A stretch of DNA of 64,000 bases, from NCBI RefSeq assembly GCF_016132445.1, contig NZ_CP046056.1, positions 806,001 to 870,000 on the forward strand, given 5' to 3'. Shown piece by piece: positions 6,616 through 55,899 of the stretch. The stretch's first letter is position 1. The number at the start of each line of letters is the position of its first letter. The notes under the pieces were generated by a model. That model saw only the letters and a program-made list of their open reading frames with translations. It searched no databases and was not told the origin of the DNA. A program made the position numbers and the translations under genes. Origin of the DNA: Venatoribacter cucullus (lineage in GTDB: Bacteria; Pseudomonadota; Gammaproteobacteria; Pseudomonadales; Oceanobacteraceae).

Positions 6616-8439
6616 ATGAAAATCCGCAATGAACTGAGCCGTCGCTCATTTCTGAAAAGTATGGCAGCAGGTGCTGGTGCGGTCTCAGTACCGGCTGCGC
6701 TGACCGGTTGTTTTGGCGAAGACGATGACGATCAGCGTGATCTGACCGTGTTTGTCTTCGGTCACGGTGTGGCTTCCGGTGATCCGCTGGCCGATCGGGT
6801 GATCATCTGGACTCGTGTCACCCCTTCAGAATACGGAATCAGCAAGGATGCTCAGGTGGCCTGGGTAGTGGCAACAGATGAAGATCTGACCAGCGTTGTT
6901 GCGTCTGGCACGGTGTATACGAATGCTAGTCATGATTATACCGTAAAGGTCGACGTGACTGGTTTAAGCCCGGATACCACCTATTACTATCAGTTTGCTG
7001 GTAAGGATAAAGAGGTTTCTCCGGTTGGCCAAACCCGTACTCTACCAACCGGCAATATTGATTCTGTGAAGTTGGCGGTGTGTTCTTGTTCTAATTACCC
7101 GGCCGGTCTGTTTAATGTGTATCGAGATATTGCCAACAGCGATGCTGCTGTGGTTTTGCATCTTGGTGATTATATTTACGAATACGGCTCCAACGAATAC
7201 CCGAAAGCTGATGCTCAGGTGCGTGCACCTGAGCCATCGCAAGAGATTCTGAGCCTGAGTGATTACCGTGCACGTTACTCTCAGTACCGCAGCGACATCG
7301 ATCTGCAGGAGGTGCATCGTGTTAAGCCCTTTATTTGCGTCTGGGATGACCACGAACTGGCCAATGACACCTGGAAAAACGGTGCTGAAAATCATCAGCA
7401 AGATGAAGGTGAGTTTAGTGAGCGCCGGGCCGCCGCAATTAAGGCTTATCATGAATGGCTGCCCATCCGAAGCAATGAAGATCAGACAAAGATCTGGCGC
7501 ACCTTTGCCTTCGGTGATCTGGTCAACCTGGTCATGTTAGATACCCGTATAGTTGCCCGCGATGAACCGCTCAGCTTTGCCAATTACATCACTGCAGCGG
7601 GTCTGGATTATGCTGGCTTTTTGAGCGATATGTCAGACACTAACCGTACTCTTTTGGGAGCTGAGCAGCAGCAACAGGTATTAACTGCTCTGGCCACCGA
7701 TCAGGCAACCTGGCAGGTACTGGGTCAGCAGGTCTTGATGGGACGAATTTTTATTCCAGTAGAACTATTACAGGATTTGGCTGCTGTACAGGCTCTGCTT
7801 GCTTCTGGGCAGGATGCTTCATCCGCACAGTTAGCGATAGCCGAAAAACTGGCAGCGCTGGCGGGTATTAAAATTCGGATTTTACAGGGTGATGACAGCG
7901 TAACAGCGTCAGAGCGAGCGCGTGTTGAAACCACGGCCCCCTATAATCTGGATGCCTGGGATGGCTATTCGCCAGCCCGGGAAGCGATTTTGCGTACAGC
8001 ACAGCAGGCGGATCAGAATCTGGTTGTTCTGGCGGGTGATACACACAACGCCTGGGCCAGTGATCTGTACATAACCGATGACACTGGTGCAGTTCAGCGC
8101 AGTGCCGGTTCGGCAGGTGTTGAGTTCGCAACGCCCTCGGTTACTTCACCGGGTTTTGAAAACTATGTAGGGTTTAATGCCATTACCGATCCGACCAATC
8201 GTGCTAATCAGCAGGCTGGTTTTGAACAGGCCGTAAGTTTTTTGGTGGATGATCTGAAATATCTTAACTCTGCTGATCGTGGCTATATGCTGGTGGATTT
8301 CAACAGAACTAATGCCACCTGTGAATGGGTGTTTGTTGATACTATCGCGTCTCGCAATTACACCGCTGTGATCAAGAAAAAAATGCGGGTGGAAGCAGGT
8401 TATGGCAAGCGCATACTGGAAAATCTGCAGCTGGTATAA
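6616..8439 (+). CDS. phoD: PhoD-type alkaline phosphatase/phosphodiesterase, Tat-exported
   Basis: 607 residues from the ATG preceded by AAGGGG. The earlier in-frame ATG at 6577 lies inside the -10 region and is unlikely. The start gives a textbook Tat signal 'SRRSFLKSMAAGAGA' followed by a cysteine, so a Tat lipoprotein is possible. The body shows the PhoD N-terminal domain ('HGVASGDPLADRVIIWTRV') and metal-site motifs 'LHLGDYIYEY', 'VWDDHELAND' and 'LAGDTHNAWASDL'. PhoD releases phosphate from mono- and diesters outside the cytoplasm, usually with Ca and Fe. The Pho box supports a phosphate-scavenging role. Confidence 0.93.
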   Translation: MKIRNELSRRSFLKSMAAGAGAVSVPAALTGCFGEDDDDQRDLTVFVFGHGVASGDPLADRVIIWTRVTPSEYGISKDAQVAWVVATDEDLTSVVASGTVYTNASHDYTVKVDVTGLSPDTTYYYQFAGKDKEVSPVGQTRTLPTGNIDSVKLAVCSCSNYPAGLFNVYRDIANSDAAVVLHLGDYIYEYGSNEYPKADAQVRAPEPSQEILSLSDYRARYSQYRSDIDLQEVHRVKPFICVWDDHELANDTWKNGAENHQQDEGEFSERRAAAIKAYHEWLPIRSNEDQTKIWRTFAFGDLVNLVMLDTRIVARDEPLSFANYITAAGLDYAGFLSDMSDTNRTLLGAEQQQQVLTALATDQATWQVLGQQVLMGRIFIPVELLQDLAAVQALLASGQDASSAQLAIAEKLAALAGIKIRILQGDDSVTASERARVETTAPYNLDAWDGYSPAREAILRTAQQADQNLVVLAGDTHNAWASDLYITDDTGAVQRSAGSAGVEFATPSVTSPGFENYVGFNAITDPTNRANQQAGFEQAVSFLVDDLKYLNSADRGYMLVDFNRTNATCEWVFVDTIASRNYTAVIKKKMRVEAGYGKRILENLQLV

Positions 8440-35533: not shown

Positions 35534-36278
35534 ACTTTTTGGTGGCCAGAGGCCGTTGAGGGTTAGGCGTTAAGGGTTCAGCGAGCGTTGTAGCAAAATA
35601 CCGGGCACGCCCAACGCTAAACCCCGAACGCTCAACGAATTTACTGTAGGAGCGGCATTTCTGCCGCGAATGCCCGCCAACAGCGGACCAATGAACATCA
35701 ACGCGGTATAGACGGGTTTAACAACCCGAATCGTGACAAAAATGTCACTCCTACAAACCCGGCGCAGCCGCTGCGGTTTTACCCGGCCCATTCGTTACAG
35801 CCCGCAGCTGAAAAAATCCGGTAGCCATGCCCGGATGGACCGGGCAAGGATCGTGGCGCACGACGCGCCTTACGATCCGCTGGCGTAACCGGAATTTTTC
35901 AGCAAGGTTAAGCTGGAACGCGGGCCAGAGGGGTTCGCAAGGGGATACCTCCCCTTGCACTGGGGCGCAGGGGCAGAGCCCCGCATAAGCGGGCGAAGCC
36001 CGCAATGTAGGAGCGGGCCATGCCCGCGAATGCCCGCCAACAGCGGGCCAATGAACATCAATGCGATATAGGCGGGTTTAACAACCCGGATCGTGACAAA
36101 AATGTCACTCCTACAATCGGTGCACGCCCAACGCTCAACCTAGAACGCTCAACGAATTTACTGTAGGAGCGGCATTTCTGCCGCGATGCCCGCCAACGGC
36201 GGGCCGGTTACCATCAGCGTTATGACTATCCCCCACGCAGAACGTGGATTGGTAAATATAATTCCAGTGAGGTGACCT
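35534..36278. repeat. Palindromic mosaic-repeat island A
   Basis: No gene. Contents: AACGCTCAACG-type microrepeats (35560-35640, 36120-36160); GGAGCGGCATTTCTGCCGCGA palindromes at about 35647 and 36164 (shown shortened); GTGACAAAAATGTCAC palindromes near 35733 and 36093; a composite unit 35761-36115 with the three-way-junction module at 35808-35902 and further hairpins CAAGGGG/CCCCTTG, GGGGCAGAGCCCC and GCGGGCGAAGCCCGC. The composite unit recurs at 37922-38220 and, inverted, near 55190-55440. Confidence 0.85.
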
Positions 36279-36509
36279 ATGGACACTCAAGAACTGTCTG
36301 CAGAAATAAAAAAACTGCCGGTTGCTGAACAAATCCAGCTACTGGATAGCCTTTGGGTATCGTTGCAACCCCATCAGGCAGCAGTATCACCGGAACATGC
36401 ACAAGAACTGGATAACCGATATCAGCAGTTCAAAGATGGTCAGCTGCAAACGAAAGACTGGCAGACCGTACATCATGGAATTCGGGGGCGCTTGAAGCTC
36501 GACGCTTGA
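36279..36509 (+). CDS. Orphan addiction-module antitoxin-like protein
   Basis: 76 residues beginning 'MDTQELSAEIKKLPVAEQIQ', the N-terminal signature of the putative addiction-module component family (PF09720, usually partner of a RelE/ParE toxin). The C-terminus diverges from the usual 'W..' end after 'YQQFKDGQLQTKDW'. No toxin gene follows; the next 140 bases are non-coding. It is a stranded or degraded antitoxin, set between repeat islands. Confidence 0.65.
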   Translation: MDTQELSAEIKKLPVAEQIQLLDSLWVSLQPHQAAVSPEHAQELDNRYQQFKDGQLQTKDWQTVHHGIRGRLKLDA

Positions 36510-36650
36510 GGCTTGAGGCCAGACGCCAGACGTTCAGCGAGCGGTTTTCCCGGCCCAATTGATTGACCGTTCAAGGCTACTGCGTTCAGCTTCTGGATGA
36601 TTTTTAATCCGTTTTTTAAATCAGATGTTGAAAACTAATAAGGAGTTGCT

Positions 36651-37376
36651 ATGGAAAGACTTTACGCATTTCCCGACAACTCCAAACATTTTCATCAATT
36701 CGATTCGGACCAACGAATTAAAGAACACTCTGCCTATAAACAAGCCAAAGCAGGTGATGCAGAAGCAGCCTTCAGGTTGGTAACAGAACTTTCTATTGAA
36801 TTCATAAAAGCCCTGGCAGGTAAGTTTCCACCAGGGGTTATCTATGTAGCCCCCTTTGCACAAGAAGCAACAGGTGATAACGCCATACCTTTGTTGCTTT
36901 CAATTTTGTGTGCCCAGGTGCTGAATGGCAGTAATGAAACCGACATTGTTCAGCAGCAGCGTGTTTACCATACAGGCGCAGATCCAATGGAAAGGCTGCG
37001 ATTAAGGCCATCCTTTGAGGGTTGGGTTACCCCGGATGCAAGCTATGTTCTGGTCGATGATGTTGTCAGCATGGGTGGAACTTTGGCAGAACTGGCAAAC
37101 TTCATTCAGCTTAATAATGGTAAAGTGCTTGGAAGTATCACATTAGTGAATGCCGGAAGAACAACGGCATTTAAGCCAAATAAAAAGCACATTCGTCTCT
37201 TACAGGAGCGATTTGAAAATGAAATCAAAACCATCTTCGGAATTCACACCAGCGCCCTTACAGCCAACGAAGCAAGCTACCTTGTCGGCTTTAAAACCGC
37301 TGACGAGATCCGAAATCGATGCCTTAAGGCAGAAAAAGAAACAGATCTCCGACTACTATCAAAAGGTCTTGGCTAG
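36651..37376 (+). CDS. Phosphoribosyltransferase-like protein
   Basis: 241 residues, ATG behind AAGGAG. 'YVLVDDVVSMGGTLAELANF' is a PRPP-binding type I phosphoribosyltransferase motif (residues about 130-150). The N-terminal half has no clear family. The substrate is unknown; it is not one of the standard purine or pyrimidine salvage enzymes. More AT-rich than the left chromosome, and isolated between repeat islands A and B, so probably mobile cargo. Confidence 0.7.
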   Translation: MERLYAFPDNSKHFHQFDSDQRIKEHSAYKQAKAGDAEAAFRLVTELSIEFIKALAGKFPPGVIYVAPFAQEATGDNAIPLLLSILCAQVLNGSNETDIVQQQRVYHTGADPMERLRLRPSFEGWVTPDASYVLVDDVVSMGGTLAELANFIQLNNGKVLGSITLVNAGRTTAFKPNKKHIRLLQERFENEIKTIFGIHTSALTANEASYLVGFKTADEIRNRCLKAEKETDLRLLSKGLG

Positions 37377-37394
37377 TTACTGAATACATAGGGT

Positions 37395-38280
37395 GCCAGG
37401 AGCGGCATTTCTGCCGCGATGCCCGTCAACGGCGGGCCAATGAACATCAATGCGATATAGGCGGGTTTAACAACCCGAATCGTGACAAAAATGTCACTCC
37501 TACAAACCCGGCGCAGCCGCTGCGGTTTTACCCGGCCCATTCGTTACAGCCCGAAGGTTACCAAAACCAATAGCATCGTTTGGATGACTCCAAACGAGCG
37601 GGTAGGGGCAGGGACCGCCCCTTGGCCGCGTATGCTTAATTGGTTTTGGTAAACAAGGATTAAGCTGGAACGCGGGCCAGAGGGGTTCGCAAGGGGATGC
37701 CTCCCCTTGCACTGGGGCGCAGGGCCGGTTTTTGCTCCTGCAAAACCGGCATTTCCGCCATCCATGGCGGTAGGCAGAGCCCCGCATAAGCGGGCGAAGC
37801 CCGCAATGTAGGAGCGGGCCATGCCCGCGAATGCCCGTCAACGGCGGGCCAATGAACATCAATGCCGTATAGGCGGGTTTAACAACCCGTATCGTGACAA
37901 AAATGTCACTCCTACAAAGCCGGCGCAGCCGCCGCTGTTTTCCCGGCCCATTCGTTACAGCCCGCAGCTGAAAAAATCCGGTAGCCATGCCCGGATGGAC
38001 CGGGCAAGGATCGTGGCGCACGACGCGCCTTACGATCCGCTGGCGTAACCGGAATTTTTCAGCAAGGACAAGCTGGAACGCGGGCCAGAGAGGTTCGCAA
38101 GGGGATACCTCCCCTTGCATCCGGGGCGCAGGGGCAGAGCCCCGCATAAGCGGGCGAAGCCCGCAATGTAAGAGCGGGCCATGCCCGCGAATGCCCGCCA
38201 ACGGCGGGCCAATGAACATCAACACAGCATAAGCGGCCCTTGCGGGCCCGATTCGTGGGCATGGCCCACTCCCACAAAAT
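37395..38280. repeat. Palindromic mosaic-repeat island B (two composite units)
   Basis: No gene. Unit B1 (37510-37915) and unit B2 (37922-38220) share their flanks with island A. B2 carries the same three-way-junction module (37968-38062). B1 has a module of the same shape but different sequence (37558-37652) and an extra hairpin with CCGGTTTTTGC/GCAAAACCGG (37733-37753). GTGACAAAAATGTCAC palindromes lie near 37481 and 37892. A 307-codon open frame on the minus strand here is an artefact of the GC-rich repeats. Confidence 0.85.
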
Positions 38281-55155: not shown

Positions 55156-55877
55156 TGGGCCGCCGCTGTGCGGCTGGCCTATTGCGGCCTTCGGCCGCTG
55201 GTATTGCAAGGGGAGGTATCCCCTTGAGAACCCCTCTGGCCCGCGTTTCAGCTTAACCTTGCTGAAAACAGCCGCCAACGGCCACGGATCGTAAGGCGCG
55301 TCGTGCGCCACGATCCTCGCCCGGTCCGTCCGGGCGGGCCTACCGGCTGTTTTAAGCTACGGGCTGAAACGAATGGGCCGGGAAAACAGTAGCGGCTGCG
55401 CCGGCTGTGTAGGAGTGACATTTTTGTCACGATTCGGGCCGGTAGGGCCGTTTATATTGGCCCGCCGTTGGCGGGCATCGCGGCAGGAATGCCGCTCGTA
55501 CGGTTTTATCGCGGCAGGAATGCCGCTCGTACAGCGGGTAGGTTAAGCGTTAAGGGTTGGGCGTTCTGCGTGCTCGGGTTGTAGGAGTGACATTTTTGTC
55601 ACGATTCGGGCGGCAGGGCCGTTTATATTGGCCCGCCGTTGGCGGGCATCGCGGCAGAAATGCCGCTCGTACATTGCTCGCGGAACCTTTAACGCCGAAC
55701 TTTGAACGGCTAATCGATTGGGCCGGGAAAACAGTAGCGGCTGCGCCGGCTGTGTAGGAGTGACATTTTTGTCACGATTCGGGCCGGTAGGGCCGTTTAT
55801 ATTGGCCCGCCGTTGGCGGGCATCGCGGCAGAAATGCCGCTCGTACATTTTCATCGTGGCAGGAATGCCGTTTTTTT
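55156..55877. repeat. Palindromic mosaic-repeat island D (inverted composite unit)
   Basis: No gene. 55190-55440 is an inverted relative of the composite unit in islands A and B, with the three-way-junction module at 55265-55353 in a third stem version. Three TGTAGGAGTGACATTTTTG palindromes (about 55409, 55580, 55754) alternate with GGCAGAAATGCC/GGCAGGAATGCC palindromes and TTGGCCCGCCGTTGGCGGGC hairpins, making an almost tandem ladder of about 170-bp period. Confidence 0.85.
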
Positions 55878-55899
55878 AAACCCGCTTCGGCGGGTTTTT
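55878..55899 (+). terminator. Strong intrinsic terminator
   Basis: AAACCCGC-TTCG-GCGGGTTT followed by TTG: a tetraloop stem with T run after repeat island D, 50 bases before the next gene. It likely ends the block 2 transcript. Confidence 0.85.

Follow-up and report, generated by a model that had tools for sequence, protein, structure and literature searches.

Judged by sequence and predicted fold, the repeat arms scattered through the Venatoribacter cucullus genome are diverged relatives of TwoAYGGAY (RF01731), rather than members of that family under Rfam's own rule. Their shape, that of TwoAYGGAY, was already known and its function is unexplained; in this genome the copies are scattered between genes and often stand as opposed pairs of unlike arms. 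We interpret the arms as a dispersed TwoAYGGAY element that was spread by insertion and is under selection for its RNA fold, CsrA being its putative partner, an interpretation whose chances of being right or wrong we regard as almost balanced. The genome is a single contig of 2,827,114 bases, and the window, the whole stretch of DNA analyzed, comprises 64,000 nucleotides at positions 806001-870000. Four modules, each with an outer stem closing two hairpins, had been predicted within it and were confirmed at 35808-35902, 37558-37652, 37968-38062 and 55265-55353. The arms enclosing these modules and the features close to them are as follows.

35785..35931, plus strand: alpha arm 1, with an outermost stem GGCCC..CGTT..CAGC / GCTG..AACG..GGGCC around module 35808-35902
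35824..35884, plus strand: core of alpha arm 1 as given by the fold, with an inner stem 35824-35827/35881-35884
35828-35846, plus strand: hairpin 1 of the alpha arm 1 core, loop AUGGA
35848-35878, plus strand: hairpin 2 of the alpha arm 1 core, loop ACGAC, without GGA
35939..35982, plus strand: two trailing hairpins, AAGGGGATACCTCCCCTT and GGGGCAGAGCCCC, resembling hairpins of Thalassolituus repeats
36279..36509, plus strand: gene for a putative addiction module component (PF09720), between the arms, context only
36651..37376, plus strand: gene for a phosphoribosyltransferase-like protein (25.7 bits against a Pfam cut-off of 26.3), between the arms, context only
37534..37683, plus strand: beta arm, enclosing module 37558-37652
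37945..38091, plus strand: alpha arm 2, enclosing module 37968-38062
55233..55379, minus strand: alpha arm 3, with module 55265-55353 in minus-strand reading

RNA folding of all four modules produced three-way junctions in which the outer stem leads through a short inner stem to two hairpins, and the original prediction of a common shape with differing outer stems was upheld. Fold energies for the four modules were -55.1, -50.6, -55.1 and -56.2 kcal/mol with z values of -7.9, -6.7, -7.9 and -5.7, and none of 200 shuffles of each module folded equally well. The four modules represent three distinct sequences, the one at 35808 being repeated exactly at 37968. The outer stem was found to run further outward than had been recognized, as the flanks GGCCCATTCGTTNCAGC and GCTGGAACGCGGGCC pair too; with flanks the full arm measures 147-150 nt (full-length folding covering two of the four window arms), and the 147 nt of alpha arm 1 folded at -81.9 kcal/mol with a z value of -8.1. 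The predicted further hairpins of the flanks were also present, two trailing hairpins following the module. Short GTAG-headed hairpins (TGTAGGAGCGGCATTTCTGCCGCGA and kin) that appear REP-like by eye were observed at window positions 35640-36200, 37398-37440 and 55400-55880. A suspected excess of GNA loops among the short hairpins of the window was not found, with four GNA against six TNC loops in 39.

Searches with one alpha, one beta and one gamma arm, combined with pattern matching in the stretches retrieved, identified 49 arms in the genome, comprising 15 alpha, 20 beta and 14 gamma arms, the last consisting of an alpha-like core set in other outer stems. Thirteen other alpha arms match the first alpha arm of the window at 82-97% identity along most of its length, and one further alpha arm matches it at 85% along a part. 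Certain unpaired letters are shared, namely an AG ahead of hairpin 1, a second AG linking it to hairpin 2, and a CG that follows the latter. Of the 49 arms, 48 have GGA in one or both apical loops, a count that is not meaningful for five arms with large inserts; GGA is found in hairpin 1 of 22 arms and in hairpin 2 of 32 (calls for hairpin 2 being unreliable in the five insert carriers), in both hairpins of six arms and in neither of one. In the window alpha arms GGA is lacking from hairpin 2, and since the ACGAC loop of hairpin 2 recurs in other families (L261, L265, L267, L271 and others; genomes G212, G200 and G416) this loss is not peculiar to V. cucullus. Most alpha arms, but just one beta arm, have GTAG ahead of hairpin 1, and two gamma arms possess a core variant otherwise found in alpha arms. 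Five beta arms contain approximately 70 extra bases of hairpins inside hairpin 2 (loci L019, L011, L068, L021 and L026; genome positions 392951, 1119462, 2117185, 2153003 and 2375538), and several other arms are longer by approximately 56 bases in their outer 3' flank, with hairpins nested in hairpins.

The statement in the original prediction that no named family has this shape was wrong, as TwoAYGGAY has it and the three best RF01731 matches of the genome are arms. These matches, to two beta arms and one alpha arm, scored 39.8, 38.0 and 36.0 bits (E 7.9e-5 to 5.7e-4), and the other six of the nine genome hits at E<=10 had E values above 0.1. None of the nine reached the curated cut-off of 43 bits, the best scoring 39.8, and the four window arms gave no RF01731 match even at E<=10, just as an Rfam search of the window at the gathering score returned no match. 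The family was first signalled by a permissive Rfam search in Thalassolituus loci. TwoAYGGAY was reported in 2010 as a candidate RNA, with table entries of 'y' for RNA and 'n' for cis-regulatory (PMC2864571), and was described in 2014 as having an unknown function, a hypothesized CsrA binding and a poorly conserved external stem (PMC4333381). Neither repeats nor opposed pairs are mentioned in the TwoAYGGAY passages of the main texts of these two papers, and no later account of function was found by a literature search under the name TwoAYGGAY.

So that the assignment would not depend on Rfam only, a model (R1) was built from 44 cores of relatives, taken from RF01731 hits in four relatives and including no V. 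cucullus sequence. Within a search space of 142,258 bases of the genome that contained all 49 arms, R1 recovered 28 of them at E<=0.0014 (10 alpha, 15 beta and 3 gamma), always on the expected strand, with the next match at E 0.057. At E<=0.01 the remaining 21 of the 49 arms were missed, including three of the four in the window (the alpha arms); the beta arm was the sole window arm found, at 37570-37644 with 27.2 bits and E 2.6e-5. The copies missed by R1 are tied by sequence to those found by it, and these data indicate common descent of the arms with accepted TwoAYGGAY members. The copies being related, the suggestion that they might prove to be unrelated hairpins of common transposon ends fails as worded. 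The arms resemble TwoAYGGAY in having two adjacent hairpins inside a variable and poorly conserved outer stem, AG and CG linkers and AYGGAY-type loops, all on the same strand, and in the RF01731 alignment the two best beta arms span the full model and the best alpha arm spans the core. They differ from TwoAYGGAY in scoring below the cut-off here, in mostly possessing a single GGA loop (six of 49 arms have a GGA-type loop on both hairpins), in falling into few shared arm types, and in their long extra outer stem, their trailing hairpins and their copy number of 49, of which 40 face an arm of another type as a pair. Weak Rfam matches to MIR173, RsmY, P11, rsmX and CRISPR repeats were set aside as chance, and integron attC sites were considered improbable, dispersed copies in both directions being unlike a cassette array.

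Forty of the 49 arms are arranged in 20 head-to-head pairs, the nine unpaired arms including the four in the window. The pairs comprise six alpha-beta, ten gamma-beta and four gamma-alpha combinations, and none of the 20 joins two arms of the same type, against 6.6 expected (P 0.0003 under free assortment, a value that treats pairs as independent, which descent of whole pairs from few founders would break). Each type pairs with both others, and as we read the loci the pair centre is found in both directions relative to the arms; both points argue for some reshuffling. The pair centres, for example those of L021 and L011, contain tandem repeats such as TTTTGG/TTTTGGG with copy numbers that vary between pairs. 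Whole-arm identity inside pairs is 0.21-0.62, and a same-type copy is present elsewhere at 0.94-0.99 for 38 of the 40 paired arms, the two others being insert carriers at 0.69 and 0.76. The four gamma-alpha pairs, with fairly similar cores (0.61-0.67), represent the weak spot of the unlike-arm pattern.

In modelled folding of the 20 real pairs, means of 55-57% of the positions of the forward arm were self-paired and 16-18% were paired elsewhere. The forward arm of modelled like-like constructs was approximately 0% self-paired and 95-100% paired outside, although this control is close to a foregone result and its mean is lowered by one construct at 0/0 owing to a numeric failure. Gamma-beta pairs were the cleanest, with alpha-gamma and alpha-beta pairs partly cross-pairing, up to 63%, and in gamma-alpha pairs the forward arm paired more outside than within itself in five of eight strand foldings.

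Opposed pairs in relatives were likewise composed of unlike arms in 16 of 16 and three of three cases compared (19 in total, a count that omits two partial +/- neighbours, L195 and L196). The 16 include 15 head-to-head pairs and one tail-to-tail pair, with core identities between arms of 46-67%. For eight Thalassolituus pairs, 15 of the 16 arms were matched at 88-100% identity, and one at 79%, by a copy from a different locus of their own genome. Best copies elsewhere were at 71-92% for three pairs of G018, and at 74% and 92% for a cluster in G017, whose neighbours in the same direction are 97-100% alike; for four pairs the comparison included no second locus of their own genome. The three further pairs were 68-69% alike within and 85-100% to other loci, other genomes included. 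At several Thalassolituus loci, including L107 (approximately 6960-7200), L123 and L108, the trailing hairpins were observed to follow a different long stem-loop arm as well, and at three Rfam-searched Thalassolituus loci that arm opposes a TwoAYGGAY-like arm head-to-head.

The compensatory stem change originally predicted from the window modules is real, two-sided change being present in 17 of 24 stem pairs in an alignment (A2) of 36 of the 49 genome arms (35 distinct rows, with eight further repeats and the five large-insert arms excluded). In this alignment 97.0% of cells are standard-paired, a figure that fell to 35-44% on sliding the partner along by 1-3 columns. As many two-sided pairs were obtained in 399 of 500 shufflings, whilst the observed proportion of paired cells and the covariation score were reached in none of the 500; the 36 arms represent three types only, and thus few independent events. 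A core alignment from relatives (A1), holding 44 of 62 cores after an arm-finding step that missed four of 69 and merged three identical ones, had 94.7% of cells paired compared with 28-42% when slid, with two-sided change in 12 of 15 pairs.

Stem mismatches allow the two strands to be distinguished, since an evenly decaying DNA inverted repeat would give approximately equal numbers of G·T and A·C, and an excess of G·T therefore indicates that one strand folds. In G018, which belongs to another genus of the family, 22 copies were fetched of 36 hits, and their outer stems of approximately 20-30 bp are mutually unrelated, a 9-mer being held in common by one of 231 copy pairs outside the last 9 bases. 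Mismatches in these stems comprised 54 G·T and 10 A·C, with 40 and three, respectively, near the core, and this points to selection on one folded strand. Twenty-two partly related copies from five further relatives gave 33 G·T and seven A·C; these derive from 20 stretches of six genomes in which R1 located 22 arms, none of them in the one stretch of G079. The count that gave the values for G018, G003, G008 and G017 omits five of 69 relatives' arms in which the hairpins were not found. The V. cucullus genome gave 28 G·T and 29 A·C and so no G·T excess, and none was present in G003 (10:19), G008 (1:4) or G017 (7:7), where copies share stems within a genome. Support for the predicted selection on a folded strand, whether RNA or single-stranded DNA, thus comes mainly from relatives, with a neutral result in V. 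cucullus itself, where the matching of the stems could also be due to copying or gene conversion.

RF01731 matches at E<=1 were present in 26 of the 55 genomes of the relatives set (V. cucullus included), above the cut-off in 12 of them, and four relatives had 21, 24, 36 and 21 hits at E<=0.05. Across the class, 23 of 369 genomes had matches at E<=0.001, copy counts from this search being lower bounds as at most seven candidates per genome were scored. In one case the sister genome G013 lacks, at the matching place, a copy present in G018 together with the copy next to it, both stem arms included. In this case a weak TwoAYGGAY copy of G018 (L209:2116-2256, R1 31.6 bits), with its own stem, is opposed to a copy at approximately 2266-2407. 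ATTGAA flanks the G018 insertion on both sides and may represent a target duplication. This one case speaks against an outer stem formed by inverted duplication of the target sequence, neither stem arm being present in the empty site of G013, and that origin was rejected for it. Comparison of gene neighbours between 28 loci here and 133 sampled loci of relatives gave seven locus pairs with a protein match, six at 31-37% identity and a seventh at 63% for which the element of the relative is approximately 7.5 kb away; three of the weak matches are near the element in both genomes, and V. cucullus and its relatives may have a few old sites in common.

The explanation that we prefer is that a diverged TwoAYGGAY, with a variable outer stem, two hairpins, AG between them, CG after the second and a GGA loop in nearly all copies, would be scattered through intergenic DNA by insertion, as one empty site shows, and that selection would act on how one strand folds, RNA being the likeliest form of that strand. 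Arm RNA would be produced by transcription of neighbouring genes running into the intergenic space, and at a head-to-head pair the read-through transcript would carry one arm backwards and the other forwards. The modelled foldings suggest that opposed arms of the same sequence would pair end to end with each other rather than fold. Keeping the arms unlike but the shape constant would explain stems that are wholly different and yet pair. CsrA, for which the genome has one gene, would bind the GGA loops, and the copies would probably soak it up as a dispersed sponge or provide protected 3' ends. Several results weigh against this reading: all scores below the Rfam cut-off, 21 arms missed by R1, no G·T excess in V. 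cucullus, G003, G008 and G017, GGA absent from hairpin 2 of the alpha arms in the window and present in both loops of just six arms, a near-even split of single G018 arms between sense and antisense, and the partial cross-pairing of gamma-alpha pairs. The arms resemble CsrB/RsmZ-type small RNAs in having GGA in hairpin loops, and RF01731 shares Rfam clan CL00106 with RsmY and rsmX. CsrB/RsmZ-type small RNAs have many GGA loops in one or few RNA genes, whereas the arms have one or two GGA loops each in many dispersed copies. No such repeat is mentioned in the passages on CsrA small RNAs of an account of Alcanivorax (PMC9788540).

The main rival interpretation, which we consider less likely, is a REP/BIME-like element acting at the DNA level, in which the arms would be recognized as single-stranded DNA hairpins by a transposase or nucleoid protein without involvement of RNA, and the dissimilarity of opposed arms would prevent long perfect palindromes, a source of instability in DNA. 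A REP has approximately one quarter of the length of an arm. Many intergenic copies, inverted pairs, convergent position and complementary stem change are among the REP properties given in passages of PMC2817692 and PMC1525189, and all four are seen in the arms, of which 20 inverted pairs lie in intergenic DNA; the insertion at an empty site (G018 compared with G013) and the lack of a mismatch strand bias in the V. cucullus genome are also in keeping with a DNA-level element. However, the arms are three-way junctions of approximately 147 nt with two hairpins rather than a single short palindrome headed by GT(A/G)G. Moreover, PF01797 (RAYT), the one transposase family searched, had no match in V. 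cucullus, with a positive E. coli control, and was also absent from the repeat-rich genomes G003, G008, G010 and G018. RAYT was rejected as the mover in V. cucullus on the basis of this absence, and its presence in relatives does not track TwoAYGGAY abundance. The excess of G·T in G018 and the five further genomes also needs one folded strand, although single-stranded DNA would satisfy this too.

Gene context bears on a second alternative, that the arms are bidirectional terminators or mRNA 3'-end stabilizers of convergent genes with no role in trans. Codon-bias gene calls placed 11 of 17 pairs between convergent genes, six between co-directional genes and none between divergent genes, with three of the 20 pairs not called; looser ORF calls gave 13 of 20 convergent and none divergent, single loci differing from the codon-bias calls. 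A similar convergent bias was present in G003 (18 loci examined, 13 with calls on both sides, 11 of these convergent). This bias is what terminators or stabilizers would produce, but we judge the alternative improbable, as 15 of 18 called loci in G018 (20 examined) are co-directional with arms on either strand (six sense and seven antisense among 13 single-arm loci between co-directional genes), and visual inspection of two loci placed the element past a distinct hairpin with T's behind it. Least probable is the absence of any selection, with symmetry kept by mutation (template switching within palindromes) and gene conversion between copies, which would fit the three arm types of V. cucullus, its near-equal G·T and A·C and the two gamma arms with an alpha-type core as if exchanged, but not the conservation of unpaired letters (AG between the hairpins, CG after them, and the loops), the G·T count far above A·C in G018 or the shape shared by genera with unrelated stems.

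Returning to selection on folded RNA, a more specific form of this reading, which we advance tentatively and with some doubt, is that TwoAYGGAY, instead of being a usual cis-regulator or a lone sRNA, is a self-scattering composite of two opposed arms that have the same shape and are necessarily unlike in sequence. If true, it would be an RNA-level counterpart of the BIME, in which the need for a non-complementary palindromic partner would lead stems to diverge fully while the shape stays. Such an unlike-arm rule suggests why the shape persists while stems change completely. With many scattered copies, pairs of opposed and unlike arms, and a G·T signal specific to one strand where stems are unrelated, the function of TwoAYGGAY becomes testable.

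Trailing hairpins were recorded in Thalassolituus alkanivorans, T. marinus and MAGs labelled Thalassobium, Oceanobacter and Saccharospirillaceae. In MAG S5C81, eight of the 11 listed trailing-hairpin copies lie within approximately 65 bases of a contig end (L106, L110, L119, L121, L126, L128, L133 and L136), and the repeat seems to break the assembly of this MAG.
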